From Crambe crambe (lineage: Eukaryota > Porifera > Demospongiae > Poecilosclerida > Crambeidae): a stretch of DNA of 64,000 nt. Below the pieces are notes generated by a model. The model was not told the origin of the DNA. It saw nothing but the letters and a program-made list of their open reading frames with translations, and searched no databases. Positions 4,442-64,000 of the stretch are shown here, in pieces. The stretch spans positions 4,973,488-5,037,487 of the forward strand of contig OZ004585.1 in assembly GCA_963924555.1 (NCBI GenBank), in the 5' to 3' direction. Both the position numbers and the translations under genes were made by a program. The stretch's first letter is position 1; the number at the start of each line of letters is the position of its first letter.

Positions 4442-4700
4442 ACAAACGATGGTTATCTCTCATCTAAGCATGTTTTAAAGGTGTTATCATGTAATGAGAT
4501 GGTGAAGGAGGATTGAAGAAAAACTGGCAACCCAAGTGACCCCGCAACCCACCAGCTGAGTTTGAACCCGCAGCATCTGACTTTAGCCGTCATAGCCACA
4601 GGACCCAACCGAATGAGCCACCAGGCACCCAGGAACCAGCTCTCTCCAATCCACCTTATATACTGCATTGGTGGTACTGCAATACTGCAGTCTCACACCA
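4442..4700 (-). mobile_element. tRNA-derived SINE, copy 2
   Basis: Second copy of the 259-base unit, offset by 361 bases from the first and nearly identical (one difference I noticed, TTCACC versus TCCACC). The same A and B boxes are present on the minus strand. Same orientation and near identity point to a local tandem duplication rather than two independent insertions. Confidence 0.65.
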
Positions 4701-23236: not shown

Positions 23237-26200
23237 TCAGTTGATTGTGTTTGTATCTTCATTATAATCGAAGTCACCAAAAACTTCCATCATTATATCA
23301 TCAACAGACATGCTGCCAAAAGTGTGATCTTCAGTATGGTCATCTTCATCTTCTGAGCTTGAGTCACTGTCAGTTGTCTCCAAATCAGTATTCGAGGGAT
23401 GGCTGGTAGCCTGTAAAGGCAGGTTAGTACATCCACTGCATTTGCATCCTACACCACAACATTGATGTCTTTTCTTGCATTTACAGCAGACTGTGTGGCA
23501 TCCAGTTTTGCAACCACATCCCTTACAAATGAGGTCAACCCTTGATCGTATCTGGGAGACATTACTCTCGCTATCCCAGTCAATGGAGAGCGTGTTTTGG
23601 TCAGGCTGTTTCCATCCATGATCATTTAATGGTGGATATGTGATATGATTTGAAGTTGATTGACTCCATACAGAACGTACCTGTACCCAGCATGATCGCT
23701 TCCAGTGTCTCAGAAGTGCATCATATGAAGGAATCATTTGATCTTCATACTGTATTCTTGTCCATATTTTTTCCCTTATTGTGTCAAGCCATATGCTGTG
23801 ATGGGAAGTATGTGGTTGATCGTCTATCACAAGTGAGTTGAAAAGTGTTGTTGGGTTGGGAAATGATGGTAAAAATGCTGCTTTGTGTTTCCTAAAATAG
23901 GCACATCCTACTAGTCTAAGGAAAGCCATAAAGCCTGGTGTGTCACTGTTAGTCAATATCCCTGGAGCATGCTCTGTATTTCCACAAATGAATTGGGAAT
24001 ATTCAAATAGTGTGGCTATAAAGGTGGCTTTTCCAAATCCATTAAAAAAGGAAATGAAATCACAACCTGTGCATATATATAATGTTTGCATAACAGAAGG
24101 AGAAAGGGCTTGATCCACCACAGCAAGATCTGGGTCATTTCTGAATGCTTTGATGAGAGCTTGCATATCAAGCAGACGGTGTTCCAATGAGCTAAAGGGG
24201 CTCAGTCGTACCACCACATCAAGTTCTGTTCTGGATATGATAGGTAAGCCTATGTGATATACATCAGTATCGGGGCTTAATACCAGTTTCTTTGAACCTG
24301 CCGAGTTTAGTACATGCAGCCAGATCCTCATGTCTGCTTCTTCAGCATTACATGATAGTGTACTACTGAAGTAGTGCTAGTGACAAACATTGCTTTGTTT
24401 TTCATAGGACCATCAAACCCCCCAGCAGTAACAAACTTTTGTTGAGGGCCAAGTTTTAGCTGAATTTTTTCCATAATATACGAAGACAAGAAGTTAACGA
24501 GTCTTCTCTTGCAGTTCCTGCAGTTCAATATGTTTTTCCTCCATTTAGGTGGAATTAACATGTCTTGAGAAAAATCAGAACAAGAATGATCATCGGGAAC
24601 CTGATTTGCTTGGTCACGATGTAGTCTTTCAAAGTGCTTTGGGCTTACTCCATCACAAATTGGATCATCAAAAAGTAAGTGTACTTCTTTTGACATACCT
24701 TGGAAGTGGGGAAGGATATGCTGCCTGATTAAAAAATCAGCATAGTCTCCCATGTTTTTGTGTGCACTCCATGGTGTGATGTTTATCAAGAACATGCCCT
24801 CCATGACCACTAGCTGTGTCAGGTATCCATCCAGATTTTAATGATGTAGTGATAATCTTGGGAGTTGCAGCTGCATACCTTTTCTCCAGAACTGTTGTAG
24901 TATTAGATTTATTGCCCTTGACTGGCTTACCATCGATTGTTGCTATTGCTCTAGGTAGTTCTAGACACTGTTCGTATGAAGTGTTTACTTGAGCTCCAGT
25001 GCTTATAGCAAAAGCAACTCTCTTTTTCCAGCATTCAAGCTGGAGTTTTCTCTCTCTCTCTATCTCAGACCCTTTCTTTTTCCTTCCTCGCCTTTCAGTA
25101 AATGTAAGTAGGCTCTTGCGGTGTTTGGGAGGATTTGCACTTGGGTTTCGTAGAATGTGGGATTTTACTTGCAAGTCGTACTCTCTTTGTCCAATACTCC
25201 TAAAGTTCATGAGATCATGTACTTGCTCCTTTGGTCCTTAATTAATGGGTTAATTATTTATGTTATCAGTTGCTCTTGAGATCAAATGAAAGTAAGATTG
25301 CCGAGTTTTTGCATTCTTGGATATCAAACAGATGTTGGAAAAGTGTGAGGGCATGGCGGGGGACGGCGTTACACATCAGAGGGAGATGTGTTGTTAATTA
25401 GTAGTGTTTTTTGATTGAATAGATGACAGAGTTCTGTGGAGTCGTTTGTTGCTAGAGAACTTGAGTCTAGCTTCTTTAGTTGGCAATGGACATTGCCTTC
25501 AAGTTTCTTGCTTTCAGGATCTGTAGCATGTATTGTTGTAATTGGTTTGAAGCTAGTATTTTTCCTTTCTGGAAAGAGCTGATTTTCTATGTTTTTCATT
25601 GCACTTGCTCTAATAGGAAGGAAAAGTGCAGTTCGATTGATGTAATCTGCTGATGGTTTGGTTATGAACTCCTTACATTCCCGATTAATGCACATCTCGT
25701 GTGCCTCATCTATTCCAAGAGAATGACAAGGCCTTACTTACTGAAAAGCCTCCTTGCTTCAGATTAGAAAGGACCTCTTCAGGAATTGTAAGCATGTCAA
25801 GTAGATGTTGAGGGATTAGCTTTTGATAGTTATGCCTATCAAAGGCTGTAAAAAGTGCTGCCATCTGTTTGATAGCTGCCATTCTTAGGTCCCAGTTGCC
25901 ACTTCGTATAGCTAAATACAATGCTACATAGGCAAAGCAATCCTCGAAGACAAATTGCAACCAAAATTTGTTCTTCCCAGATTCTTTTTCAGTTAGTCCC
26001 AAAAACTGATCTTGGAAGCCGCTATATTTTTCTGTTATATCTGTTATCATTTCATTCAGATTCCTGAATGCGCTCTCTTGGTTTGTGATGAAGGAAATGA
26101 ATTTATCCAGTCAGCACTATACCTTAAGAAATCTGGTGGAGCTTTCTTTGAGAGAAATTGAGAGAGAAAAAACCGGTAGATCGACTCCCATGCTTCTAAA

Positions 26201-28559
26201 AGAAAGTGGCGAGTTCTTTTAAAGTTAGAATCAACTGAGTTGGGCTGGTATCCACTAGCTTTGGCCAAGTCTCTAAGACCTGCATCCAAATAAATCTTCA
26301 GTAAAACCTCTTCATAATTTTTGAGAAAATGCCAGTCTCCTGGAAAAGGAACCATCCAGGATAGGTCATTTCCATATAATGCCTTAATGGACTGAAGCCT
26401 TTCGTATGTGGCTTGGTCACCCTCCAATAAAACAATTTTTTTCTTTCCAGATTGGACAAACTCTACAAACATATCATTGATGACATTAAGGAGTGTTTCC
26501 TTATCATCACACCTCTGATCTAAGACCTTGAAGAAAATGATATTTGACTGCTCTGGTTGTGGTACTTGGTTTGATAAGGAAAAGTAAGTGGTGAAGTCGA
26601 TCAAGGTGTTTTCATGAGTTGTGCTAGCAACTTTTAAAAGCATATAATTGGTGCTCATTTTTTTGAATTCTGTGAGAGCTTTGTTCTCATTGCTTTTTAG
26701 TTGAAAAGCTGTGATATTCACTTTAGGCTTTTCTAATGCTTTCCTTAGAGTGGAGACTCTGTCAATTGAGGGTAAGCTGTCCATTTCATCACCTGGACCA
26801 CCTTCCATACCTGTCCTTGAGCGCCTTTTTTTTTTAGGGCATGGAGAACAGGTTAGAGTTGTTTTTCTGGGAGACAATGTTAAGTGTGGCCTCTTTGAAA
26901 GGGTATCAGGTAATATGTTAAAGACCTCATTCTCTGAGTTAGTGACGTCTGTTATTGAGACAGTTACATTCATGTCAGTAGGACTGCTGAGATTATGGGG
27001 TTGTGGGTGTACAATTTGAATAGTGGTCCCATGCCAACTTGATTGTTGTTCTCCACAATAAACTCTTGCATAACCATGAATAAAGTCTAGGTTATCTGCT
27101 GACACAAACATGAAAGTGTTATTAGGGAATGCGGCCATGGGTCCTTCACTTTTTCTTTTCTGATTCCTAACTGAAGGTACCTAGCATGTGTTTCTGGACT
27201 AACACACACACCAAAGCGGTTTAACAATCTCATTAATCTATTTGATCCTCCACAAGTCTCTACAGCATCTGCTATGAGAGTATGGAGTGGGAAGGAACAT
27301 TGACTATTTATGGTAAAAAGAAGTGTACATATGCAAAAAAGTCTTCGAACTTTGCGAACATGTGATGAGTCCCTTTTAATTGCTTTTGTGGATGATGGTT
27401 TTGTTATTATGCACACTGCTTTCCATAAAATGGGGTCAATGCTATCAATAAATTCATCAACTTCAAAATTTTCAATGAGATGAGGACTTTCAGCATCCTG
27501 AGCTATAAGCTTCTTGATGTGGGCATGGCATTTTAGATTTACCAAGGAACAAATTTCGGAAAGTGAATCATTTTCCCTGGGATTTTCAGTATGACTTTGG
27601 CTTCCTAAAGCCACACTAAGTGCATGCACCAAGTCACCCCCAAATCGATATATAAGTGTACCATATCTCATAACTGAACATCAATAAGACATGTGGTGGT
27701 CTAGGTGTGTAGAAAGCTGGCTTCTAAGCCAAGCATGACTGGGAAGTTCTTCACTCGGTATTCCCTGTTCACTGGTGACTTTTACCAGGGTATCTTTAAA
27801 GATGGCATAAACTTTTGGAAGTAGCATAGCTGTTTGTTTTAACAGTGCTTCACCCAAGTGTATGGCTGATACACTGGAAGCATAGTGAAGAGCACTATTA
27901 AAAGTATGTAGATCTGTAATATGTGATAGTCCCTTATTGATTTCTTCTAATAATGCATGAAGATCTGTATCTGTACTATTCACCTTTTTTTTTAGATGCT
28001 TTATAATGATTAAATATGATTTGTAGCAAGTATAACATAGTCTATCTTGAGGGTGGATTTTGCTGGTGTAATCTTCATTTTCTTTCAAAAAGGTCTCAAT
28101 CAATGCTGGTTCTGGAAAACAACGACTCTTATTTTCAGTGATACTTCTATTGCATGTTTTACATTTCAAGTGTTGCGATGGGTGGAGATGCCTGTACCAT
28201 TCCCCATAGTGAGAAGTACAAAGAGGTGTACCCCCCATGTGAAACTCTGATTACTCAGGTGAATCACCACAGAAAAATGTTTGTGGTGTTTCACTGTCAA
28301 CAATTTTGGTGATTTTAGTATCAGTACTGTTACATCCAGGCACATAGCATACTGTACTTATATTGGATTTCCTCCACCTAGGGATGAAGCCATCAATACC
28401 GATGCTACTTACATCATTTCGACATGGTCGACAGATGTAGCTTTCAGGTTTGATGTCTAGAGATGGCTCGTATTCCTGAAGACATTTCATGCGTGGGTCC
28501 TTCCATGATTTAGGGTGGAAATACTTTGCAGAGAACACATGGACTGCATGGCTGTCCAT
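23237..28559 (-). pseudogene. Family B large gene copy 1 (Cys clusters, FEN-like, CXC domain), broken
   Basis: Reads from 28559 down to 23237. N-terminal Cys pairs (ICRPC, CKTC, CYTCYKS) precede a helical region. Then come FPGDWHFLKNY (about 26320), RTRHFLLEAWESIYRF (about 26180-26225), a PQHLLDM segment (about 25800), DEAHE (about 25705) and a basic KKHRKSLLTF-type stretch (about 25100). The nuclease-like module has ILSPDTD (about 24260) and ICTGCDFISFFNGFGK (about 24040-24080). The CXC domain GCGCKTGC...CKCKKRHQCCGVGCKC lies at about 23435-23525, followed by an acidic tail. Disruptions are a TAA at 28251, a TGA at 27681 and frame changes near 27137, 26053, 25700, 25290, 24770 and 24330. The intron found before the CXC region of copies 2 and 3 is absent here. 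The family relation is firm; the nuclease role is inferred. Confidence 0.72.
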
Positions 28560-29942: not shown

Positions 29943-30938
29943 ACAAGTGAGCGTAAAAAATTTCTTCGAAATAAAAATGTGAAGTAGGGATGCTATTATA
30001 ACTGCAGCTTCATTATGAAAATCAAGTACTGCAGCATCGAAGCAGTATGGCCCAAAAATCTAGCTGGAATATGTATTATAACTGCATGCAAGAGAGTGAA
30101 TTTAGTGAAGTGACCCTTACCCATCATCAAGTACGAGATACTATTCCTACTTCACTCCCTTGGCCCTTGATCATGGGAGTGAAGTAGGAATAGTATCTTG
30201 TACTTGATGATGGGTAAGGGTCACTTCACTAAATTCACTCTCTTGCATGCAGTTATAATACATATTCCAGCTAGATTTTTGGGCCATACTGCTTCGATGC
30301 TGCAGTACTTGATTTTCATAATGAAGCTGCAGTTATAATAGCATCCCTACTTCACATTTTTATTTCGAAGAAATTTTTTACGCTCACTTGTTTCTATCCT
30401 TTTTCTTAGTGCTTGAAGTTGAATGAGGGAGGCTACAGTACAGTACTATACAAAGCCAGCTCTACATAAACCTCTTTTGTAGGTACATACAGTGTCTCTG
30501 GTTGAAGAATTTGTTTAGCTATTTAAGTTTTGTTGATATAAAACTTTACAGCAACAGCAATGTAAATGACATGTACACGGCATGGTGAAGTGAGCTGACT
30601 ACACTACAGTACTGGCTATAATGCTACTATAGGATGAGCATCTGTACTGTAATTCAGCAAGGAGTGACTGGAACATCATCAGATAATGAATGAAGACCTT
30701 GGCTATAGCTAAATTTAAGCTTACGTGGCTCCGCCCATAAGCCCCGCCCCCTTCAAAATGGCGTACAAAGATTAGCAGCTGTGTTCCGAGTGCTATCGAA
30801 TAGTGAAGTAGAGCCTTAGTCAAAACTAATAGCAAAAGATCAGCCTCTAGGTGCCGCTCTAACAGATGGCCAAAGCAGAATTTTGATGACTATAGCCAGT
30901 AAGTCGGTACGTCGATCTTATACATTATTATTATTATT
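29943..30938 (+). mobile_element. Family A palindrome element, 449-base palindrome head
   Basis: A perfect-looking palindrome spans 29943-30391 (ACAAGTGAGCG...CGCTCACTTGT, centre near 30167, arms about 215 bases). It is followed by the boundary motif TTTCTATCCTTTTTCTTAG and a body with CTCCGCCCATAAGCCCCGCCCCC and CAAAATGGCG (about 30725-30765), ending GTACGTCGATCTTA and a TTA microsatellite. No 3' hairpin block follows; the next element begins directly. No coding capacity. Confidence 0.75.
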
Positions 30939-31797
30939 ACAAGTGAGCGCAAATAATTTCTTTTAAATAAAAAGGTTAAGTAGGGATAGCTTAAAATCTA
31001 GCTGGGCTATAATAATGTACTGCAGCCTTGTATGAAAACAATCCCTACATTTACATCCACTACCTATAGCTAGCTATGGGCCGTTGTAAAAGTAGGGATT
31101 GTTTTCATACAAGGCTGCAGTACATTATTATAGCCCAGCTAGATTTTAAGCTATCCCTACTTAACCTTTTTATTTAAAAGAAATTTTTTGCACTCACTTG
31201 TTTCCATCCTTTTTTCTTAGTGCTTGAAGTTGAATGTAAGTTTGTGTGTGTAAAGAATTGAGTGGCAGTTATGACTGTCACTTCAACTGAGAGTATATGC
31301 ATGCAGTGATTATTAATTTGACGTAGGTACATACACAATCTCTGGTTGAAGAATTTGTTTAGCTATTTAAGTTTTGTCTATTATTTAATATAAAACTTTA
31401 CAGCAACAGCAATGTAGCTAAATGACGTGCATGGCATGGTGAAGTGAGCTGACTACACTACAGCCAGGTACTGGCTATAATACTACTATAAGATGAGCAT
31501 CTGTACTGTAATTCAGCAAGGAGTGACTGGAACATCATCAGATAATGAATGAAGACCTTGGCTATAGCTAAATTTAAGCTTACGTGGCTCCGCCCATAAG
31601 CCCCGCCCCCTTCAAAATGGCGTAGAAAGATTAGCAGCTGTGTTCCGAGTGCTATCGAATAGTGAAGTAGAGCCTTAGTCAAAACTAATAGCAAAAGATC
31701 AGCCTCTAGGTGCCGCTCTAACAGATGGCCAAAGCAGAATTTTGATGACTATAGCCAGTAAGTCGGTACGTCGATCTTATACATTATTATTATTATT
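30939..31797 (+). mobile_element. Family A palindrome element, tandem unit 1
   Basis: A 263-base palindrome (30939-31201; inner arm with AATCCCTACAT, loop near TATAGCTAGCTATGG) and a body to the TTA microsatellite. It differs from the preceding unit in its palindrome but shares the body. Together with the next unit it forms an 859-base tandem duplication of very high identity. Confidence 0.78.
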
Positions 31798-32664
31798 ACA
31801 AGTGAGCGCAAAAAATTTCTTTTAAATAAAAAGGTTAAGTAGGGATAGCTTAAAATCTAGCTGGGCTATAATAATGTACTGCAGCCTTGTATGAAAACAA
31901 TCCCTACATTTACATCCACTACCTATAGCTAGCTATGGGCCGTTGTAAAAGTAGGGATTGTTTTCATACAAGGCTGCAGTACATTATTATAGCCCAGCTA
32001 GATTTTAAGCTATCCCTACTTAACCTTTTTATTTAAAAGAAATTTTTTGCGCTCACTTGTTTCCATCCTTTTTTCTTAGTGCTTGAAGTTGAATGTAAGT
32101 TTGTGTGTGTAAAGAATTGAGTGGCAGTTATGACTGTCACTTCAACTGAGAGTATATGCATGCAGTGATTATTAATTTGACGTAGGTACATACACAATCT
32201 CTGGTTGAAGAATTTGTTTAGCTATTTAAGTTTTGTCTATTATTTAATATAAAACTTTACAGCAACAGCAATGTAGCTAAATGACGTGCATGGCATGGTG
32301 AAGTGAGCTGACTACACTACAGCCAGGTACTGGCTATAATACTACTATAAGATGAGCATCTGTATTGTAATTCAGCAAGGAGTGATTGGAACATCATCAG
32401 ATAAGAATAAATAGCTAGCTAAATGAAGACCTAGCTAAGCTTACGTGGCTCCGCCCATAAGCCCCGCCCCCTACCGACGTGCGCTTTAAAATGGCGTCGA
32501 AAGATTAGCTAGTGTTCCGAGTGCTCGAATAGTGAAGTAGAGTCTTAGTTAAAACTAATAGCAAAAGATCAGCCTCTAGGTGCCGCTCTAACAGATGGCC
32601 AAAGCAGAATTTTGATGACTATAGCCAGTAAGCCGGTACGTCGATCTTATTATTATCCTTATTA
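31798..32664 (+). mobile_element. Family A palindrome element, tandem unit 2
   Basis: Starts 859 bases after the previous unit with the same palindrome (31798-32060) and boundary motif. The distal body is diverged (an ATAAATAGCTAGCTAAATGAAG insertion and CTACCGACGTGCG), so it recombined with another subtype after duplication. Confidence 0.75.
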
Positions 32665-33554
32665 TCAGAGAGTGCGCTAGCACTCTCTAAGTAGGGATGG
32701 CGGGTCAAAGGTCATAAGACTGTATAAACTAAAACTCTTCTTTCTCTTCTACCCTTACTCTACAGGTTCTCAGAAGGCTACAGTGAATTATTACATCTAC
32801 AAAGAAGAGAGGAGAATGTTCAAAAACCAAAAATTCATTCGCTAACATGAGAAAAAACGATGTCTAAAATTGACTTTTGTTCTTTTTCTTTATAATAATA
32901 AGGATAATAATAATAATAATAATAATAAGATCGACGTACCGGCTTACTTGCTATAGTCATCAAAATTCTGCTTTGGCCATCTGTTAGAGCGGCACCTAGA
33001 GGCTGACCTTTTGCTATTAGTTTTGACTAAGGCTCTACTTCACTATTCGAGCACTCGGAACACTAGCTAATCTTTCGACGCCATTTTGAAGCGTATGTCG
33101 TTAGGGGGCGGGGTTATGGGCGGAGCCACGTAAGCTTCTTAAGTTTAGGTCTTCAGTTTAATCGTTTAGCTAGCTATTTATTCTTATCTGATGATGTTCC
33201 AGTCACTCCTTGCTGAATTACAGTGCTCACCCTCAATTCTTTTATACATACACAAACTAATATTCAACTTCAAGCACTAAGAAAAAAGGATAGAAACAAG
33301 TGAATGCAAAAAATTTCTTCTAAATAAAAAGGTTAAGTAGGGATAGCCTAAAATCTAGCTGGGCTATATAATGTACTGCAGCCTCGTATGAATACAATCC
33401 CTACTTTACAACTGCTATAGCTAGCTATAGGTAGTGGATGTAAATGTAGGGATTGTATTCATACGAGGCTGCAGTACATTATATAGCCCAGCTAGATTTT
33501 AGGCTATCCCTACTTAACCTTTTTATTTAGAAGAAATTTTTTGCATTCACTTGT
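32665..33554 (-). mobile_element. Complete family A unit in minus orientation
   Basis: Read on the minus strand: a 259-base palindrome (33554-33296), TTTCTATCCTTTTTTCTTAG, a body with CTCCGCCCATAACCCCGCC and AAAATGGCG, a TTA microsatellite with the characteristic TCC interruption, then one 3' block ending at the AGAGAGTGCTAGCGCACTCTCTGA hairpin (32665). This shows head, body, microsatellite and tail together in about 890 bases. Confidence 0.75.
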
Positions 33555-33561
33555 TATTATT

Positions 33562-34395
33562 ACAAGTAAGCGCAAAAAATTTCTTCTAAATAAAAAGGTT
33601 AAGTAGGGATAGCTTAAAATCTAGCTGGGCTATAATAATATAATGTACTGCAGCCTTGTATGAAAATAATCCCTACATTTATATCCACTACCTATAGCTA
33701 GCTATGGCAGTTGTAAAAGTAGGGATTATTTTCATACAAGGCTGCAGTACATTATATTATTATAGCCCAGCTAGATTTTAAGCTATCCCTACTTAACCTT
33801 TTTATTTAGAAGAAATTTTTTGCGCTTACTTGTTTCTATCCTTTTTTCATAGTGCTTGAAGTTGAATATAAGTTTGTGTATGTAAAGAATTGAGTGGCAG
33901 TATTGACTGTCACTTCAACTGAGAGTATGCAGTGATTATTAATTTGACATGAGTATCTCTTTCTTTTGTAGGTACATATATATACACAGTCTCTGCATGG
34001 TTGAAGAATTTGTTTAGCTATTAAGTTTTGTCTATTATTTACTTTACAGCAACAGCAATGTAAGTATTTGTACTGTAATTCAGCAAGGAGTGACTATAAC
34101 ATCATCAGATAAGAATAAATAGCGATTAAACTGAAGACCTAGCCGAGCTTAGCTAGCTTAAGAAGCTTACGTGGCTCCGCCCATAATCCCCGCCCCCTAA
34201 CGACGTGCGCTTCAAAATGGCGTAGAAAGATTAGCTAGTGCCGAGTGCTATCGAATAGTGAAGTAGAGCCTTAGTCAAAACTAAGGGCAAAAGATCAGCC
34301 TCTAGGTGCCGCTCTAACAGATGGCCAAAGCAGAATTTTGATGACTATAGCCAGTAAGTCGGGGCGTCGATCTTATATTTATTATCCTTATTATT
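33562..34395 (+). mobile_element. Family A palindrome element
   Basis: A 272-base palindrome (33562-33833, ends ACAAGTAAGCGC / GCGCTTACTTGT), the boundary motif TTTCTATCCTTTTTTC, then the shared body ending GGCGTCGATCTTATATTTATTATCC. It sits head to head with the minus unit at 32665-33554, seven bases apart. Confidence 0.75.
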
Positions 34396-36818
34396 ACAAG
34401 TGAATGCAAAAAATTTCTTCGAAATAAAAATGTGAAGTAGGGATGCTATTATAACTGCAGCTTCATTATGAAAACCAAGTACTGCAGCATCGAAGCAGTA
34501 TGGCCCAAAAATCTAGCTGGAATATGTATTATAACTGCATGCAAGAGAGTGAACTTAGTGAAGTGACCCTTACCCATCATCAAGTACGAGATACTATTCC
34601 TACTTCACTCCCTTGGCCCTTGATCATGGGAGTGAAGTAGGAATAGTATCTTGTACTTGATGATGGGTAAGGGTCACTTCACTAAGTTCACTCTCTTGCA
34701 TGCAGTTATAATACATATTCCAGCTAGATTTTTGGGCCATACTGCTTCGATGCTGCAGTACTTGGTTTTCATAATGAAGCTGCAGTTATAATAGCATCCC
34801 TACTTCACATTTTTATTTCGAAGAAATTTTTTGCATTCACTTGTTTGCATTCTTTTTCTTTGTGATTATGAAAATTGATAGACACTAAAGGCTTCCTTGA
34901 TTGAACTAAATTTATTTAATGATCAGTATTTCATTCTGTTCAGGGAGGAGAGTTTGAAGGATGATCATCTGCAGTGTAATGGAGTACTGAAAGGAGTGAA
35001 CATTTTAAAAAGTGAACAGCATTAGCTAATTGTTACATATGTGATCACTGAAATAATTATTGAGATGGTACGTATGTCTTGCTTGAGGGAGGAGTAGCTA
35101 TGGGGAGTTTATGCATTTGGTGTAGTGATCATAATAGTGCATGCCATCAAATGGCCACATCCTGTGCAGGTGTTATATGAGGAGAACTGCTATTAATTGC
35201 CCCACCCCTTTTATGAGGTAATATCGCGAAGATTTTTTTCATACGAGGCTGCAGCACATTATAGATAGCCCAGCTAGATTTTAGGCTATCCCTACTTAAC
35301 CTTTTTATTTTTTACGCTCACTTGTTTCTATCCTTTTTCTTAGTGCTTGAAGTTGAATGAGGGAGGCTACAGTACAGTACTATACAAAGCCAGCTCTACA
35401 TAAACCTCTTTTGTAGGTACATACAGTGTCTCTGGTTGAAGAATTTGTTTAGCTATTTAAGTTTTGTTGATATAAAACTTTACAGCAACAGCAATGTAAA
35501 TGACACGTACACGGCATGGTGAAGTGAGCTGACTACACTACAGCCAAGTACTGGCTATAATACTACTATAGGATGAGCATCTGTACTGTAATTCAGCAAG
35601 GAGTGACTGGAACATCATCAGATAATGAATGAAGACCTTGGCTATAGCTAAACTTAAGCTTACGTGGCTCCGCCCATAAGCCCCGCCCCCTTCAAAATGG
35701 CGTAGAAAGATTAGCAGCTGTGTTCCGAGTGCTATCGAATAGTGAAGTAGAGCCTTAGTCAAAACTAATAGCAAAAGATCAGCCTCTAGGTGCCGCTCTA
35801 ACAGATGGCCAAAGCAGAATTTTGATGACTATAGCCAGTAAGTCGGTACGTCGATCTTATTATTATTATTATTATCCTTATTATTATTATTATAAAGAAA
35901 AAGAACGAAAAGTCAATTTTAGAACTCGTTTTTTTCTTATGTTGGCGAATGAATTTTTGGCTTTTGAACATTCTCCTCTCTTCTTTGTAGATATAATAAT
36001 TCACTGTAGCCTTCTGAGAACCTGTAGAGTAAGGGTAGAAGAGAAAGAAGAGTTTTTAGTTCATACTGTCCTATGGACTTTGACCTGCCATCCCTACTTA
36101 GAGAGTGCTACCGCACTCTCTGATTATAAAGAAAATGAACAAAAGTCAATTTTAGAACTCGTCTTTTTCTTATGTTAGCGAATGAATTTTTGGTTTTTGA
36201 ACACTCTCCTCTCTTCTTTGTAGAAGTAGTATCTCACTGTAGCCTTCTGAGAACCTGTAGAGCAAGGGTAGAAGAGAAAGAAGAGTTTTTAGTTTATACA
36301 GTCTTATGACCTTTGACCCGCCATCCCTACTTAGAGAGTGCTAGCGCACTCTCTGATAAAGAAATAGAACAAAAGTCAATTTTAGACATCGTTTTTTTCT
36401 TAAGTTAGCGAATGAATTTTTGGTTTTTTGAACATTCTCCTCTCTTCTTTGTAGATGTAATAATTCACTGTAGCCTTCTGAGAACCTGTAGAGTAAGGGT
36501 AGAAGAGAAAGAAGAGTTTTTAGTTTATACAGTCTTATGACCTTTGACCCGCCATCCCTACTTAGAGAGTGCTAGCGCACTCTCTGATAAAGAAAAAGAA
36601 CGAAAAGTCAATTTTAGAACTCGTTTTTTTCTTATGTTGGCGAATGAATTTTTGGCTTTTGAACATTCTCCTCTCTTCTTTGTAGATATAATAATTCACT
36701 GTAGCCTTCTGAGAACCTGTAGAGTAAGGGTAGAAGAGAAAGAAGAGTTTTTAGTTTATACTGTCCTATGGACTTTGACCTGCCATCCCTACTTAGAGAG
36801 TGCTACCGCACTCTCTGA
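34396..36818 (+). mobile_element. Composite family A element with a fourfold 3' block
   Basis: A 449-base palindrome (34396-34844) is followed by a body that itself contains a solo right arm of the shorter palindrome type (about 35239-35327), then the standard GC-box body, a TTA microsatellite and four tandem 3' blocks ending at 36818. Bases 34396-35866 recur at 56545-58030 with very few differences. The solo arm shows that a new head was added onto an element that already had one. Confidence 0.75.
35893..36818 (+). repeat. Fourfold tandem array of the 3' terminal block (230-231 bp units)
   Basis: Units at 35893-36123, 36127-36356, 36357-36587 and 36588-36818 each start TAAAGAAAwAGAAC or close to it and end with the hairpin AGAGAGTGCTASCGCACTCTCTGA. 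Units 1 and 4 are one subtype (GACTTTGACCTGCC, centre CTACCG) and units 2 and 3 another (GACCTTTGACCCGCC, centre CTAGCG). The next unit starts directly after CTCTGA, or after TTA in one case. Confidence 0.85.
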
Positions 36819-37120: not shown

Positions 37121-40100
37121 ATGGCCCTGGCTCACAAGTGTGGCCCATGCTCCTTGTGTAAGCAGGAGAGTACAAGGTACACTCACCCACCAAAAATGAA
37201 GCCAATAGTATTTGAGCTGGTTTGTTCCTGTATGGAAGAGGAGCAACAACTTGATAACATGTCCTGCATATGCCATGCACGTTATAAACAAGCCATCAGA
37301 AATGTAGGCACCAATAATTTCAACCCCAGATGGAGAGACAAACTTACTAGCAAGAAGGGATGCTGTGGGGTGGCTGGGTATAATGAGGATGCATATTATA
37401 GGCGAACACAGATGGCTTCACCAACATCCCTTCAATCTATACTTGGGAAGCATATTATCTCTGGTTCTGAGCAGGACACCCCACTGTGCAAGGGTCATTA
37501 CACCTACATGCAAAATGCACTACGTGCCCCGCGGCCATGCTCATCCTGCAACAGCAAACCAAAATGGGGTGAACAGCACACCAGACATTGCCCTGAACCA
37601 GAGCTGGTTAACTCGTATCTTACCACCATTATGTAATGAAACATCAGCACTCACTGCATCAAGTACCATCTGTAGTCACTGTTATAAGCTTTTCAGTAAT
37701 GTAGTCTTACAACTCAAGCACTCCAAGGTTGTGTTTGAGCACAAGCAGCATGTCTACAAGCATGGAGAGTGTAGTGAGTGAGCTTTCCTCTCGTGAAAAT
37801 TCCATCACATCTAGATGTGGCATGATAACTAGTGAAGACTCGATCAAGTTGGCATTCTGTAAATCTGCCAAATCAATAGCAGGTACTATAAGTAGGCATG
37901 AGGCATTGTTGTTACCTGAAGTATATAGGCAATTCTGTGAGTCAGTGGTGTTGGCAAGTGGAAGTAGCAATGAAATTCCAACTATCAGGTGGTTTGTCTC
38001 CATGATCTACCACTATTTTGGCAACAGCATAAGGTTCGAGTGCAAGCATCGTTGTTTCGGGACAATGAAAGATTGTGACATCTTGAAGGCTCTGTCCTCT
38101 GCTCTTGGGCAACATCAGAAAGAAACCAAGAGTTACACATCACGAAGTTGGACCTTCTCTTCCCTCAATGGATAAACAAGTCCAGCAAGTTGCCCTCCAC
38201 TTGCATGAATAATCAGAAAGAATGGTTGAAAAGTTCAAAAATCTGGAGGAATACACCACCATGAGCATAAGTTCACTCATAAATAGTGTCGACAAGCAAC
38301 TCCTGCAGTTCATCCGCCAGGTAACATGTTCTAAGAATGACATCCGAACTGAAAAGAAATGCCAAAAACTCCACCAGGAAACCACTTTTGACATGGTCAA
38401 TGATAAAACCCTCAAGCACTTTTATGCACTGTGTGTTCTCCTCTTCAATGCTAACAGAGAGTGCAGTGCACCTCTCCATGTGGTGTTGACTGAAGCTATC
38501 CTTTGTCATGGAGGTAGTCTTGAGCTGGTGAAGATATTGAATAATTTAGGAGCCGTGGCATGCAATGATACTCGCAATCGTCTTTCAGTTCAAGTTCTTG
38601 AACTTAAGCTCAGAGAAGGAGTCAAAAAAGAACTGGTACCAGGAAAGATCGCTGTAGTCTCAATAGACAACATCGACATTTTGCAGCCACATGCCCTAGT
38701 TTCTACTCTTGATGCTACAAGAAGTTGGCATGGTACATCAGTACAATGTATGCAACCTTTACCTCTGACAGGCACTCTGACCCCACAAGAAAAGGTAGCT
38801 CCTGATGTGACATCTCTCCCAGAATCACCAACCATTCCACGACCCACAAAAAGGAGAAGAACAATGACTGAGCAAGGCTCACATCCACAACAGGATTTGA
38901 ATGACCATCTTCCAAGTTTGTTCTGCAGTGATGAAAACATGTCACTGCATGATCTCGAAGGACAGACTGATCCAAAAATGGCTGACTTTTTGCTCAATCA
39001 ATCTGAAGATTTAATGCTTTCAAATTTGAAATCAGACATCCACAATGGTCATTAAGTTTTTCAACTCAAAGAGATCACAAGGTGCCATCTCACTTCCATC
39101 ACTCACCTCCTTTATTCATTGTTTGAAGAAGCAGTCAAATGACTCTGAGTGTTCCAATGTGGTATATCTGGATATTTTGAGCGAAAAAGCAGAGAGCAAA
39201 GCTACACTTCTCAAAATTTTTGGCAGAGTATACAAGACGTTTATCAGTGAGCTCAATCAAGAGTGGGTTTTTGTCTTCGGTGATGCAAAAGTTTATGAAG
39301 TTTTGCAAGAAGTTAAAAAGGAGTATGGTGAAGCCCTGAAGTGGTTGTGTCCATTTCCAGGTGATTGGCATATTTTGTATAATTTCCAGAAAGTGTTAAT
39401 GAAGCCATATGCTGATGCTGGATTGCTTAGTCTAGGCAAAGCTTCCGGATACAGGGCAGAGACACTAACCTCTTTAAGGAAAGCAAGTAACTTCAGGAGG
39501 ACACACCTTTTCCTGTTGCAATGCTTTGAGGCATTATACAGATATTTTCTGGAGTCCTTCTGTAGCAGTCTTGATAAAGATGTCCTTGATAAACTGCAGT
39601 CTTTAGCTTTGGACCAGATTGAGCGATGTATATTAGTTGGTAAAGCATCCAGCCTTGCTGCATTTAGAGAATCAAAAATGAGTGATGCCATGTACTGCAA
39701 TTCGTGGATAGTTTGAGTGATAAACATGATGTGTATAAATTCTGGTCCCGGTTCTTATTTGAAGACTGTTTGCCGTATATAGGGTTGTACATGTCACTGA
39801 GATATAGAATTTGGGATATGCGTATGGCTTCTTTAAAAAAAATGGTGCCACTTTTCTCAGCCTTTGATCACACTTGCTACCAAAAGCTCATCCCACAACA
39901 CTTGCTTGATGTCTTCAAACTTCCAAATTGTCTGAAAGTACACATGAAGAGAGGAGCTTTTTCTATCAGGTTGACACCAAAAGATTGGTGTGGAATAGCA
40001 TTAGATGAATGCCATGAAACTAAAATAAACAGTTAGCCATTATTAGGCCTAACAAAGATAAAATGTTTCATGTTGCTAATTACCTGGGCTTCTGGGCCAA

Positions 40101-55032: not shown

Positions 55033-55874
55033 ACAAGTAAGGGAAAAAGCATTTCGTGAAATGAAAAAAGATGTAGGGATGACCACTGCTCAAAAAAGTA
55101 AGGAAACAAGAAGGATGGAAATGGGATCAATCTTTATTCTGTATATCCAGCCAACAATCCCTACATATACATCGGGTAGCTTCCGATTATAGTGTAGTAA
55201 TGTACCTATATGTAGGGATTGTTGGCTAGATATACAGAATAAAGATTGATCCCATTTCCATCCTTCTTGTTTCCTTAGCAGTGGTCATCCCTACATCTTT
55301 TTTCATTTCACGAAATGATTTTTTCCCTTACTTGTTCCTGGTCTTTTTTCCTCTCTTTTATGGTTTTAGCTATGTATAGAGTTCATTCTTCTATGTGTAT
55401 GCAGGGACAGATGAAAGAAGAATAGTTCTCCAATAGTTCTCCAGCATACCAGCCCAATCATTCTCAACGAGTCAAGGTGTTGTGTTATTGTTGAGCTATA
55501 CTTGGAGGTCGAAGGAAGATACTGAAATAGAGTCTACCGTCGTGAATCTAAATCCCCGAGTCGATACAGTAGTCTATCATCATTATCTAGAGCTAGCTAG
55601 CTAGCTAGCTAGAGACAGCTGAGTAATATTATAATTTCGAATAATTGGATATCAAATACATGCGCATGCGTATTATAGAAAAAATGGCTTCCTAATTGAA
55701 TTAGTCGAGTGCTGTGCTCCGTAGTGTCTCCTTTTTCATCTACTCTTTCGAGGATCAACGAGTAGAAAAGATCGTAGTTCGTAGAATTTGGAGTGGATTT
55801 ATCCAGAAATCATAGCTGTAGCTTGAGTGGTTCGAGAGATACGGTTGTCTAAGAAGAAGAAGAAGAAGAAGAAT
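55033..55874 (+). mobile_element. Family C palindrome element, copy 1
   Basis: A 303-base palindrome (55033-55335; ACAAGTAAGGG / CCCTTACTTGT, inner AATCCCTACATATA) is followed by the boundary motif TCCTGGTCTTTTTTCC. The body has a GCTAGC repeat, ACATGCGCATGCGTATTATAG (NRF-1-like, about 55660), AAAATGGCTTCC and GTTCGAGAGATACGGTTGTC, and ends in an AAG microsatellite. No 3' block; copy 2 follows directly. Confidence 0.75.
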
Positions 55875-58800
55875 AAAGGAAAAAGCATTTCGTGAAATGA
55901 AAAAAGATGTAGGGATGACCACTGCTCAAAAAAAAGTAAGGAAACAAGAAGGATGGAAATGGATCAATCTTTGTTCTGTATATCCAGCCAACAATCCCTA
56001 CATATACGTCGGGTAGCTTCAGATTATAATGTAGTAATGTACGTATATGTAGGGATTGTTGGCTGGATATACAGAACAAAGATTGATCCCATTTCCATCC
56101 TTCTTGTTTCCTTACTTTTTTGAGCAGTGGTCATCCCTACATCTTTTTTCATTTCACGAAATGCTTTTTCCCTTACTTGTTCCTGGTCTTTTTTCCTCTC
56201 TTTTATGGTTTTAGCTATGTATAGAGTTCATTCTTCTATGTGTATGCAGGGATAGATGAAAGAAGAATAGTTCTCCAATAGTTCTCCAGCATACCAGCCC
56301 AATCATTATCAACGAGTCAAGGTGTTGTGTTATTGTTGAGCTATACTTGGAGGTCGAAGGAAGATACTGAAATAGAGTCTACCGTCGTGAATCTAAATCC
56401 CCGAGTCGATACAGTAGTCTATCATCATTATCTAGAGCTAGCTAGCTAGCTAGCTAGAGACAGCTGAGTAATATTATAATTTCGAATAATTGGATATCAA
56501 ATACATGCGCATGCGTATTATAGAAAAGATGGCTTCCTAATTGAACAAGTGAATGCAAAAAATTTCTTCGAAATAAAAATGTGAAGTAGGGATGCTATTA
56601 TAACTGCAGCTTCATTATGAAAACCAAGTACTGCAGCATCGAAGCAGTATGGCCCAAAAATCTAGCTGGAATATGTATTATAACTGCATGCAAGAGAGTG
56701 AACTTAGTGAAGTGACCCTTACCCATCATCAAGTACGAGATACTATTCCTACTTCACTCTCATGATCAAGGGCCAAGGGAGTGAAGTAGGAATAGTATCT
56801 TGTACTTGATGATGGGTAAGGGTCACTTCACTAAGTTCACTCTCTTGCATGCAGTTATAATACATATTCCAGCTAGATTTTTGGGCCATACTGCTTCGAT
56901 GCTGCAGTACTTGGTTTTCATAATGAAGCTGCAGTTATAATAGCATCCCTACTTCACATTTTTATTTCGAAGAAATTTTTTGCATTCACTTGTTTGCATT
57001 CTTTTTCTTTGTGATTATGAAAATTGATAGACACTAAAGGTATAGCTAATGCTTCCTTGATTGAACTAAATTTATTTAATGATTAAATTTTATAGTATTT
57101 CATTCTGTTCCGGGAGGAGAGTTTGAAGGATGATCATCTGCAGTGTAATGGAGTACTGAAAGGAGTGAACATTTTAAAAAGTGAACAGCATTAGCTAATT
57201 GTTACATATGTGATCACTGAAATAATTATTGAGATGGTACGTATGTCTTGCTTGAGGGAGGAGTATGGGGAGTTTATGCATTTGGTGTAGTGATCATAAT
57301 AGTGGATGCCATCAAATGGCCACATCCTGTGCAGGTGTTATAATTATGAGGAGAACTGCTATTAATTGCCCCACCCCTTTTATGAGGTAATATCGCAAAG
57401 ATTTTTTTCATACGAGGCTGCAGCACATTATAGATAGCCCAGCTAGATTTTAGGCTATCCCTACTTAACCTTTTTATTTTTTACGCTCACTTGTTTCTAT
57501 CCTTTTTCTTAGTGCTTGAAGTTGAATGAGGGAGGCTACAGTACAGTACTATACAAAGCCAGCTCTACATAAACCTCTTTTGTAGGTACATACAGTGTCT
57601 CTGGTTGAAGAATTTGTTTAGCTATTTAAGTTTTGTTGATGTAAAACTTTACAGCAACAGCAATGTAAATGACATGTACACGGCATGGTGAAGTGAGCTG
57701 ACTACACTACAGCCAAGTACTGGCTATAATGCTACTATAGGATGAGCATCTGTACTGTAATTCAGCAAGGAGTGACTGGAACATCATCAGATAATGAATG
57801 AAGACCTTGGCTATAGCTAAACTTAAGCTTACGTGGCTCCGCCCATAAGCCCCGCCCCCTTCAAAATGGCGTAGAAAGATTAGCAGCTGTGTTCCGAGTG
57901 CTATCGAATAGTGAAGTAGAGCCTTAGTCAAAACTAATAGCAAAAGATCAGCCTCTAGGTGCCGCTCTAACAGATGGCCAAAGCAGAATTTTGATGACTA
58001 TAGCCAGTAAGTCGGTACGTCGATCTTATTATTATTATTATTATCCTTATTATTGTTATTATTATGAGTGCAAAAAATTTCTTCTAAATAAAAAGGTTAA
58101 GTAGGGATAGCCTAAAATCTAGCTGGGCTATATAATGTACTGCAGCCTCGTATGAATACAATCCCTACATTTACATCCACTACCTATAGCTACCTATAGC
58201 AGTTGTAAAAGTAGGGATTGTATTCATAGGAGGCTGCAGTACATTATATAGCCCAGCTAGATTTTAGGCTATCCCTACTTAACCTTTTTATTTAGAAGAA
58301 ATTTTTTGCACTCACTTGTTTCTATCCTTTTTTCTTAGTTCTTGAAGTTGAATATTAGTTTGTGTATGTATAAAAGAATTGAGGGTGAGCACTGTAATTC
58401 AGCAAGGAGTGACTGGAACATCATCAGATAAGAATAAATAGCTAGCTAAACTTAAGAAGCTTACGTGGCTCCGCCCATAACCCCGCCCCCTACCGACATG
58501 CGCTTCAAAATGGCGTCGAAAGATTTAGCTAGTGTTCCGAGTGCTCGAATAGTGAAGTAGAGCCTTAGTCAAAACTAATAGCAAAAGATCAGCCTCTAGG
58601 TGCCGCTCTAACAGATGGCCAAAGCAGAATTTTGATGACTATAGCCAGTAAGCCGGTACGTCGATCTTATTATTATTATTATTATTATTATAAAGAAAAA
58701 GAACAAAAGTCAATTTTAGACATCGTTTTTTTCTCATGTTAGCGAATGAATTTTTGGTCTTTGAACATTCTCCTCTCTTCTTTGTAGATGTAATAATTCA

Positions 58801-59293
58801 CTGTAGCCTTTTGAGAACCTGTAGAGTAAGGGTAGAAGAGAAAGAAGAGTTTTTAGTTTATACAGTCTTATGACCTTTGACCCGCCATCCCTACTTAGAG
58901 AGTGCTAGCGCACTCTCTGATAAAGAAAAAGAACGAAAAGTCAATTTTAGAACTCGTTTTTTTCTTATGTTGGCGAATGAATTTTTGGCTTTTGAACATT
59001 CTCCTCTCTTCTTTGTAGATATAATAATTCACTGTAGCCTTCTGAGAACCTGGTAGAAGAGAAAGAAGAGTTTTTAGTTTATACTGTCCTATGGACTTTG
59101 ACCTGCCATCCCTACTTAGAGAGTGCTACCGCACTCTCTGATTAGTCGAGTGCTGTGCTCCGTAGTGTCTCCTTTTTCATCGACTCTTTCGAGGATCAAC
59201 GAGTAGAAAAGATCGTAGTTCGTAGAATTTGGAGTGGATTTATCCAGAAATCATAGCTGTAGCTTGAGTGGTTCGAGAAATATGGTTGTCTAA

Positions 59294-59331
<38 letters not shown>
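55875..59331 (+). mobile_element. Family C palindrome element, copy 2, interrupted by a nested composite
   Basis: The head palindrome is 55875-56180 and the body matches copy 1 up to CTTCCTAATTGA at 56544. The body resumes with ATTAGTCGAGTGCTG at about 59141 and ends with the AAGAATAATAAT microsatellite near 59331. Everything between is a foreign insertion. Comparison with copies 1 and 3, which read straight through CTAATTGAATTAGTCGAG, fixes the junction to the base. Confidence 0.8.
56546..59141 (+). mobile_element. Nested composite family A element (2,596 bp), precise A^T insertion
   Basis: Starts CAAGTGAATGC with a 449-base palindrome (56545-56993), then a body matching 34845-35866 including its solo arm (about 57413-57496), a TTA microsatellite, a second palindrome (58065-58319) with its own body, another microsatellite, and two 3' blocks (58691-58920 and 58921-59141) ending CTCTGA. 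The first and last bases are the 5' head start and 3' hairpin end of the family, so the whole chain seems to have inserted as one unit. The host family C sequence is restored exactly when it is removed, without target duplication. Confidence 0.75.
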
Positions 59332-59335
<4 letters not shown>

Positions 59336-60411
59336 GTAAGGAAAAAAGCATTTCGTGAAATGAAAAAAGCATTTCGTGAAATGAAAAAAGATGTAGGGAT
59401 GACCACTGCACAAAAAAGTAAGGAAACAAGAAGGATGGAATCTTTGTTCTGTATATCCAGCCAACAATCCCTACATATACGTCGGGTAGCTTCAGATTAT
59501 AGTGTAGTAATGTACATACATGTAGGGATTGTTGGCTGGATATACAGAACAAAGATTCCATCCTTCTTGTTTCCTTACTTTTTTGTGCAGTGGTCATCCC
59601 TACATCTTTTTTCATTTCACGAAATGCTTTTTCCCTTACTTGTTCCTGGTCTTTTTTTCCTCTCTTTTATGGTTTTAGCTATGTATAGAGTTCATTCTTC
59701 TATGTGTATGCAGGGACAGATGAAAGAAGAATAGTTCTCCAATAGCATACCAGCCCAATCACTATCAACGAGTCAAGGTGGAGGTAGAAGATGCTGAAAT
59801 AGAGTCTACCTTGTTGAATCTAAATCCCCGAGTCGATACAGTAGTCTATCATCATCATCATCATTATTCTAGCTACATATACCTATACCTAGCTAGCTAG
59901 CTAGAGGCAGCTGAATAATATTATAATTTCGAATAATTGGATATCAAATACATGCTCATGCGTATTATAGAAAAGATGGCTTCCTAATTGAATTAGTCGA
60001 GTGCTGTGCTCCTTAGTGTCTCCTTTTTCATCGACTCTTTCGAGGATCAACGAGTAGAAAAGATCGTAGTTCGTAGAATTTGGAGTGGATTTATCCATAA
60101 ATCATAGCTGTAGCTTGAGTGGTTCGAGAGATATGGTTGTCTAAGAAGAATAATAATAAGAAGAATAATAATAGAGAAGAAGAAGAATATAGCGATTTAC
60201 CTGCTTGCCGTATTTCTGAAACGGTAAGCTCCCTGGTCCTGAAACTTGGTCTGCACATTGTAGTAGGCTCTAGTAGGCTGGATAATCATTCACAGTAGCT
60301 TTTGTTAGGTCTAAGTGGGAGAACTAGAATTTCACTTTAGTATTAGTCTATAGGCGGCGCGCGCGGCCGTCCGAGTCATCCCTACATAGAGAGTGCTACC
60401 GCACTCTCTGA
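59332..60411 (+). mobile_element. Family C element, copy 3, with 3' block
   Basis: A palindrome at 59332-59643 (with a duplicated GCATTTCGTGAAATG on the left arm), the boundary motif, the body with CATGCTCATGCG in place of the NRF-1-like site, an AAG/TAA microsatellite, then one 240-base 3' block (60172-60411) beginning TAGAGAAGAAGAAG and ending with the AGAGAGTGCTACCGCACTCTCTGA hairpin. This is a complete head-body-microsatellite-tail unit. Confidence 0.75.
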
Positions 60412-60424
60412 TAATAATAATAAT

Positions 60425-61770
60425 AAGGGAAAAAGTATTTCGTGAAATGAAAAAAAGATGTAGGGATGACCACTGCTCAAAAAAGTAAGGAAACAAGAAG
60501 GATGGAAATGGGATCAATCTTTGTTCTGTATATCCAGCCAACAATCCCTACATATACGTCGGGTAACTTCAGATTATAGTGTAGTAATATACGTATATGT
60601 AGGGATTGTTGGCTGGATATACAGAACAAAGATTGATCCCATTTCCATCCTTCTTGTTTCCTTACTTTTTTGAGCAGTGGTCATCCCTACATCTTTTTTT
60701 CATTTCACGAAATGCTTTTTCCTTTACTTGTTCCTGGTCTTTTTTCCTCTCTTTTATGGTTTTAGCTATGATTAGAGTTCATTCTTCTATGTGTATGCAG
60801 GGACAGATGAAAGAAGTTCTCCAATAGTTCTCCAGTACCAGCCCAATCATTATCGAGTCAAGTTGTTGTGTTGTTGAGCCATACTTGGAGGTCGAAGATG
60901 TTGAAATAGAGTCTACCGTCGTGAATCTAAATCCCCGAATCGATACAGTAGTCTATCGTCATCATTATCCAGAGCTAGAGCTAGCTAGCTAGCTAGCTAG
61001 AGACAGCTGAGTAATATTATAATGTCGAATAATTGGATATTCAAATACATGCGCATGCGTATTATAGAAAAGATGGCTTCCTAATCGAATTAGTCGAGTG
61101 CTGTGCTCCATAGTGTCTCCTTTTTCATCGACTCTTTCGAGGATCAACGAGTAGAAAAGATCGTAGTTGGTAGAATTTGGAGTGGATTTGTCCAGAAATC
61201 ATGGCTGTAGCTTGAGTGGTTCGAGAGATATGGTTGTCTAAGAAGAAGAAGAAGAATATATAATAATAATAATAGAGAAGAAGAAGAATATAGCGATTTA
61301 CCTGCTTGCCGTATTTCTGAAACGGTAAGCTCCCTGATCCTGAAACTTGGTCTGCACATTGTAGTAGGCTCTAGTAGGCTGGATAATCATTCACAGTAGC
61401 TTTTGTTAGGTCTAAGTGGGGGAACTAGAATTTCATTTTTGTATTAGTCTATAGGCGGTGCGCGCGGCCGTCCGAGTCATCCCTACATAGAGAGTGCTAC
61501 TGCACTCTCTGATAATAATAAATAATAATAATAGAGAAGAAGAAGAATCCAGCGATTTACCTGCTTGCCGTATTTCTGAAATGGTAAGCTCCCTGGTCCT
61601 GAAACTTGGTCTGCACATTGTAGTAGGCTCTAGTAGGCTGGATAATCATTCACAGTAGCTTTTGTTAGGTCTAAGTGGGGGAACTAGAATTTCACTTTTG
61701 TATTAGTCTATAGGCGGCGCACGCGGCCGTCGAGTCATCCCTACATAGAGAGTGCTACCGCACTCTCTGA
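60425..61770 (+). mobile_element. Family C element, copy 4, with two 3' blocks
   Basis: A palindrome at 60425-60731, a body with ACATGCGCATGCGTATTATAG (about 61048), an AAGAAG/TAA microsatellite, and 3' blocks at 61273-61512 and 61532-61770. The blocks contain CCTGCTTGCCGTATTTCTGAA and GGCGGCGCGCGCGGCCGTC-like GC-rich stretches before the terminal hairpin and do not match the family A 3' blocks outside the CATCCCTACwTAGAGAGTGC end. Confidence 0.75.
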
Positions 61771-63486: not shown

Positions 63487-64000
63487 TTTCCCCCCTTGTA
63501 AACTGTTACTAGTAAACCACTGCAAACTCTTACTGCATCCATATACACTTCTCTATTTAATGCTAGAGAGCTGTTCGCCGTTTTATTTGGAGATTGGACT
63601 AAGGACCCGAGGGCATAGCTGTGGAATAGAATCATGTACGTTCTTACTGCATCTCACGTACACTTCTCTATTTAATGCTAAGGAACTGTTTGCCGTTCTA
63701 TCTGGAGATTGGACTAAGGACCCGAGGGCATAGCTGTGGAATAGAATCATGTACGTTCTTTTTTGTTACTAATAAACCACTGCAAACTGTTACTGCATCC
63801 TTGTACACTTTTCTATTTAATGCTAGGGAGCTGTTCACCGTTCTATTTGGAGATTGAACTAAGGACCCGAGTGCATAACAGTGGAATAGAATCATGTACG
63901 TTCTTCTTTTCTTATGAATTGTTACTAATAAACCACTGCAAACTGTTAATGCATCCATGTACACTTCTCTATTTATTGCTAGGGAGCTGTTCACCATTCT
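63487..64000 (+). repeat. Tandem repeat running off the window end
   Basis: TCTATTTAatGCTAgrGArCTGTT recurs at about 63553, 63671, 63813 and 63968, with GGAGATTGgACTAAGGACCCGAG and GTGGAATAGAATCATGTACG between. Unit length varies (about 118, 142 and 155 bases) because a segment with TACTAATAAACCACTGCAAACT is absent from one unit. It continues beyond base 64000. Confidence 0.75.

Follow-up and report, generated by a model that had tools for sequence, protein, structure and literature searches.

A 2.6-kb insert at positions 56546-59141 of the 64-kb stretch of Crambe crambe DNA analysed here (the window) raises the question of what kind of element it is, which of its ends is the 5' end and how it came to hold more than one tail, body and palindrome. 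The insert splits one of the four units of a repeat chain, termed family C, at an A^T position, with neither duplication nor loss of bases. When the 100 bases on each side are joined, they match the uninterrupted family C units at 55.7, 60.0 and 61.1 kb in 198/200, 196/200 and 196/201 positions, respectively, with no gap at the junction in any of them and, in the third, a single gap farther off. This bears out the precise insertion without target duplication that an earlier note on this DNA had claimed. The ends and coordinates given there are also confirmed, as the plus strand of the insert begins with CAAGTG (56546) and finishes with CTCTGA (59141), between A and T. However, the note had taken CAAGTG for the 5' end and CTCTGA for the 3' end, which has to be inverted, because the order of the ends around the transposase ORFs of autonomous relatives puts the element on the minus strand. 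Its 5' TC end is CTCTGA (A^TCAGAG, with a hairpin), and its 3' end is formed by the palindrome with CAAGTG (CACTTG^T).

Read 5' to 3' on the minus strand, the insert consists of tail alpha, tail beta, (TAA)n, a type 1 body, a palindrome, again (TAA)n, a type 2 body with a half palindrome, and a final palindrome (Table 1). Simple elements (window 32667-33553; L058-L060, L062, L063, L065, L066) have the order of a tail of about 230 nt that starts with a hairpin, (TAA)n, body and palindrome. The eight simple elements that were typed all combine a beta tail with a type 1 body; the alpha tail, which belongs to type 2, was seen in nests only, and no free un-nested type 2 element was read. The inner palindrome breaks off five bases early, before ACTTG, which leaves the outermost 3' end as the only complete one in the window copy. 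The outer 3' palindrome folds as a single hairpin (-260 kcal/mol, z -47). With the sequence between it and the half palindrome as query (56996-57430), the 40 best-scored matches of 432 candidates have 92-100% identity. The half palindrome of type 2, this 438-bp stretch and the new palindrome together look as if one arm had been lost and a new 3' end gained. Elsewhere in the window, two ORFs have a weak Pfam match to DUF6589 (26056-27138, minus strand; 39045-39716, plus strand, the latter match below the cut-off), and two-copy tandem repeats lie at 19701-20006 (153 bp) and 63528-63760 (115 bp). A tRNA scan and an Rfam scan of the 64-kb window found nothing.

Table 1. Features of the insert, its host chain and a second chain in the window; ^ marks the junction between element and flank or between two elements.
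Feature	Position	Strand	Remark
Host: chain of family C Helitron units, 3 tails and 4 bodies	55034..61770	-	A^TC at 61770, CTTG^T at 55034
Insert: putative non-autonomous composite Helitron in a family C unit, at A^T	56546..59141	-	5' TC end at 59141, 3' CTTG end at 56546
Outer 5' tail, subtype alpha	58921..59141	-	starts A^TCAGAGAG; hairpin with 9-bp stem two bases from the end; fold z -5.4
Inner 5' tail, subtype beta	58692..58920	-	meets the outer tail at TTTA^TC, where the outer microsatellite has its first A^T
(TAA)n microsatellite of the inner element	58667..58691	-	tandem repeat
Body of the inner element, type 1	58319..58666	-	body comparison
Inner 3' palindrome, arms about 118 nt	58066..58318	-	terminal ACTTG missing in the window copy
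Remaining (TAA)n of the outer element, putative entry site of the inner element	58026..58065	-	tandem repeat
First part of the type 2 body (outer element)	57494..58025	-	body comparison
Half palindrome, apparently the entry arm of a former 3' end, second arm gone	57431..57493	-	
Stretch from the half palindrome to the present 3' end, found in type 2 elements	56993..57430	-	
Outer 3' palindrome, 447 bp, 221-nt arms, 99% complementary	56546..56992	-	ends CACTTG^T
Second composite chain, four tails and five bodies	29944..36818	-	begins with A^TC and finishes with CTTG^T
Complete element of the simple kind (beta tail, body and palindrome, one each)	32667..33553	+	reversed inside the chain 29944..36818

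Autonomous partners, ends and target sites

The earlier note had proposed to search the genome for a Rep/helicase element sharing these ends, and such elements exist. A search of the sponge's own genome (143 Mb, 119 contigs) with the Pfam profile Helitron_like_N gave 67 matches, and two Rep/helicase loci were read whole. Their ORFs of 2397 and 2428 aa are free of stops, contain Helitron_like_N, PIF1 helicase and OTU domains (Pfam, ORFs scanned in pieces) and have a PHFH/PHYH motif, a two-tyrosine region and the Walker A sequence GVGGTGKS. The helicase part is matched in the PDB by PIF1 chains and by the Helraiser chain (E 6e-33 for Helraiser); the Rep part of the autonomous protein alone has no PDB match. 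At L041 and L043, an OTU cysteine protease domain lies towards the end of the transposase ORF, which also encodes Rep and helicase, and the C-terminal part of the two Pfam-scanned ORFs contains no endonuclease domain but OTU instead.

Upstream of both ORFs, and of a third one that is cut by the end of its locus, stands A^TCAGAGAG...CTCTCT, the reverse complement of what had been described as the 3' hairpin. Downstream of the autonomous ORFs lies a long palindrome ending in CTTG^T, and the flanks differ among the copies. The termini, which the note had regarded as functional, are indeed of the same two kinds as those carried by autonomous Helitrons of this genome. The own 5' tail of the autonomous B element is 80% and 85% identical to the alpha and beta tails of the window, respectively (about 230 columns). 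Between its 3' palindrome and the inner palindrome of the window, the identity is 74% (258 columns). The alpha tail of the insert is closer to the tail just outside the autonomous B element (95% over 231 columns). For family C, the 3' end is 80% identical over 333 columns to the autonomous 3' end of L051, and it is through the 3' end that family C is linked to this putative autonomous partner.

Genome-wide, two patterns of the 5' hairpin occur 820 and 885 times and their reversed controls 0 times; the end pattern is not due to chance. In the loci read, A precedes 52 of 53 distinct exact-pattern 5' tails, the exception being L054 with T, and T follows all 52 ends of 3' palindromes (53 hits minus one false hit, W_-1091), in agreement with the assignment to Helitrons at A^T made before. 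All 14 complete elements as well as the autonomous 5' and 3' ends start with TC and end with CTTG, respectively, the latter in place of CTRR. For the comparison with empty sites that had also been proposed, joined flanks of 19 insertions (13 + 6, one chain excluded) were searched, and for seven of them an uninterrupted relative was found and the site read. Four sites are clean: the 4.2-kb five-tail chain L068 (197/200, gapless), L060 (198/200), the C11 composite (195/200 at each of two sites) and L058 (174/195, with two gaps that are both off the junction). The remaining three, those of autonomous A and of the C1 and C21 composites, have gaps beside or near the junction, for the most part within TA-rich sequence, which are compatible with a duplication of 1-2 bases. 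The other 12 of the 19 have no junction-spanning match among the matches listed, and as the genome searches scored the best candidates only, a missing empty site or free copy is weak evidence.

Place among the known Helitrons

Parts of PMC4067079 and PMC6544945 describe canonical Helitrons as starting with TC, ending with CTRR, inserting at A^T and having a palindrome of 16-20 nt that stands about 11 nt before the end. With canonical Helitron1 elements such as the bat Helraiser, the Crambe element shares the TC 5' end, the A^T site without duplication, the Rep HUH and PIF1-type helicase in one ORF and the presence of a 3' palindrome. In contrast to them it ends with CTTG instead of CTRR, its 3' palindromes run up to the last base with arms of 85-221 nt, where those of canonical elements measure about 16-20 nt and lie about 11 nt upstream, and it possesses also a 5' hairpin and an OTU domain in the same ORF. 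It is a non-canonical Helitron, with the Rep/helicase, the TC start and the A^T site of the group and without its CTRR end and short palindrome. The long terminal palindromes and the CTTG end are non-canonical for Helitrons and would suit another kind of HUH element with palindromic termini, Replitron-like or otherwise. However, Helitron_like_N, PIF1 helicase and OTU in one long ORF together with the TC 5' end and the A^T site leave this explanation hardly any probability.

Helentrons, HINEs and DINE-1 have in common with the Crambe element an internal microsatellite, short end palindromes, an OTU protease and non-autonomous forms, as far as parts of PMC4067079 and PMC7492417 describe them. 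According to the same parts, Helentrons insert at TT and carry an endonuclease domain, whereas the target site in Crambe is A^T and the two ORFs contain no such domain; the element is therefore not a Helentron. Helitron2 was considered as well and rejected, since it inserts between TTTT and T or C, and the site in Crambe is A^T.

Nested chains and their movement

The insert is very probably a non-autonomous Helitron on the minus strand that was moved in trans, and in its sequence a type 1 element sits within the (TAA)n of a type 2 element. The earlier note had likened its layout to a product of read-through or to a concatemer. In such a rolling-circle product, several units copied from a tandem or circular template would have been inserted in one event. 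In favour of this, circles and read-through beyond the 3' end have been shown experimentally for Helraiser, whose hairpin is a terminator that can be bypassed, according to parts of PMC4778049. A concatemer predicts alternating tails, bodies and palindromes, but the insert reads tail-tail-body-palindrome-body-palindrome. Sixteen multi-unit chains with tails and bodies were parsed, L004 and L007 (no intact upstream tail) and L049 (no body) being omitted. All tails precede all bodies in 12 of them (window insert, 29.9-36.8 kb chain, L005, L006, L008, L053, L054, L056, L057, L061, L068, autonomous B locus). The other four (L002, L003, L067, host C chain) have a palindrome, a short TAA stretch and then a 5' tail, an order which side-by-side insertion or a concatemer would give.

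The subtypes, too, are paired like brackets. The outermost tail and the last body are of the same subtype in all 12 testable chains, which are partly related by descent (window insert, 29.9-36.8 kb, L005, L006, L068, L053, autonomous B, and the C13, C20, C21, C11 and C1 composites; of these five composites the outer ends alone were read and the interiors are known from coordinates). Ten chains are cut or have one subtype and cannot be paired (L002, L003, L008, L054, L056, L057, L061, L067, host C chain, C8:3210790). The clearest examples are L053, in which C tail and C body enclose a complete beta/type 1 element, and the autonomous B locus (L042-L043), in which an alpha tail and a type 2 body enclose an autonomous element. 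Among 44 bodies placed in a tree, the outer ones of type 2 are near-identical and the inner ones belong to several subfamilies, which implies that type 2 elements were hit repeatedly; independent nestings explain this contrast, which counts against a concatemer. A type 1 element with its beta tail within the (TAA)n just inside the alpha tail of a type 2 element is thus the better fit, and given both the order and the match between outermost tail and last body we regard the concatemer as improbable.

It could also be that local tandem duplication by unequal exchange or slippage made the arrays of tails and the arrays of bodies and palindromes separately. Such duplication does seem to happen, as two neighbouring body units at 30.9-32.6 kb are sisters with an identical joint. 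Nevertheless, the joints between tails use different A^T positions of the TAA array (the first one in the window), alpha and beta tails are mixed inside runs, and the inner element of L053 is of another family than its host, which makes duplication highly improbable as the general origin. Of the 85 5' ends of one pattern that are listed for contig C1, 36 stand in runs, with 22 spacings of 222-242 that cluster at 230-231, 234 and 236-237. On another contig, one set of element matches is present three times, about 40 kb apart (G000:C7:22611, 62567, 102519), perhaps as a large tandem repeat. At L005 (from the tails at 4633 to the first body at 3401), the start of the microsatellite has given way to some other sequence of about 1 kb, perhaps another insertion. 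The numbers of tails and bodies are unequal in several chains (L068, 5/2; L008, at least 3/2; 29.9-36.8 kb, 4/5; host chain, 3/4), so that early stopping, loss or local duplication must be added to nesting.

The query from L007, which joins inner body, nested joint and outer body, has 14 full-length matches among the best 40 of 1651 candidates scored, ten of them at 94-100% (query included) and four at 87-92%; one inner-only match (98%) is among the matches listed. Outer flanks were read at three of the ten L007-like copies (C13, C20, C8). Their 3' flanks all differ from each other and from that of L007, and the 5' flanks of C13 and C20 differ as well, the stretch read at C8 ending before the outermost tail. 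Judged by these flanks, nested composites can move as units. The inner terminator is an intact CTTG in 10 of 13 chains with a visible inner 3' end (L002-L005, L007, L008, L053, L061, L068, 29.9-36.8 kb chain) and is damaged or missing in three (window insert, L006, L056). The copying of composites whose inner end is intact implies bypass of that end.

For the window copy, unit and stepwise insertion leave an identical outer junction, and the subfamily to which its inner element belongs is often found free, so that insertion as a unit is one of two possible histories here. Within the nesting explanation, we consider it a serious possibility, though short of an even chance, that the chain was built stepwise, type 2 having entered family C and type 1 later type 2. 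This is consistent with the different inner elements that type 2 elements received and with the loss of the inner ACTTG, which occurs in no other chain read. On the other hand, the same alpha-beta and type 1-type 2 composition is present at L005, and a related composite moved as a unit.

We propose that a Rep/helicase like that of the autonomous B elements of the same genome acts in trans. It would nick at the outermost 5' end and displace the strand, the long 3' palindrome would serve as terminator, and the ends of the displaced strand would be joined into an A^T site. New copies would often land in resident elements, as the (TAA)n array beside the 5' tail offers an A^T in every repeat. If the inner terminator is bypassed, the nest would move as a single element, and if it is obeyed, extra 5' tails would be left. 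In the window copy, the loss of the inner ACTTG would aid bypass. Chains with surplus tails such as L068 would fit stops at an inner end in earlier rounds, by analogy with the Fusarium model in parts of PMC5148889.

These parts propose self-insertion for the multiple 5' termini of composite FoHeli elements, which are Helitron2-like elements of Fusarium oxysporum. The idea of self-insertion is shared with the Crambe elements, and FoHeli1/2 also start with TCAG and a hairpin. As described there, FoHeli elements have several 5' ends and a single 3' end, since the first terminator stops, and differ in their 3' ends and targets, whereas in Crambe copies of a nest with two 3' palindromes occupy several places, and the elements land in a TAA microsatellite of their own. 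Tandem Helitrons of plant centromeres have more 5' than 3' ends (Xiong et al., 2016, as reported in part of PMC12628747), and in that account their arrays arose by rolling-circle amplification once the terminator had been lost. In Crambe, in contrast, the bracket-like pairing points to nesting.

Arms of the 3' palindromes

Five autonomous 3' palindromes have arms of 159, 103, 159, 85 and 149 nt that are 98-100% complementary. In type 1 palindromes (33 copies) the arms differ by 0.9% within a copy compared to 5.7% between copies, and the same change is present in both arms in 85 columns and in one arm in 30. For type C (7 copies) the values are 2.1% and 18%, with 85 both-arm and 56 one-arm columns. 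For type 2 (12 copies) they are 0.8% and 1.2%, with 14 both-arm and 11 one-arm columns; here the own arm is joint-nearest in 2/12 copies, and 24 departures are in one arm and 15 in both. Hence the arms co-vary in types 1 and C, whereas type 2 gives little contrast. Two type 2 palindromes (L093:1549-2061, L094:235-740) are about 60 nt longer than that of the window and still palindromic, their length apparently having been altered in both arms; the comparison of type 2 palindrome and body divergence, which took in the loop, was used for palindrome lengths only. In search listings of the openly licensed literature, no description of long 3' palindromes of Helitrons was found.

The likeness of the arms could be due to conversion between them, to fold-back synthesis or to selection on the hairpin. 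It is conceivable, if doubtful, that the 3' palindrome is rebuilt during movement, in that the displaced strand folds back, its 3' end primes and one arm templates the other. Such rebuilding would explain that arms are alike within a copy and drift among copies in types 1 and C, and would resemble the hairpin-primed step of parvoviruses.

Taken for their biology, the Crambe elements mean that Helitrons of this kind can grow by self-insertion. So far self-insertion has been proposed from repeated 5' ends, as in parts of PMC5148889, whereas here nests with paired subtypes are directly readable, together with at least one nest that has copies at several places and with the site that the element itself offers to its kin for landing. 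The choice of a rolling-circle transposase among several start and stop signals in one DNA thereby becomes testable, and the co-varying 3' palindromes raise the question whether the Helitron cycle includes a hairpin-primed or a conversion step.
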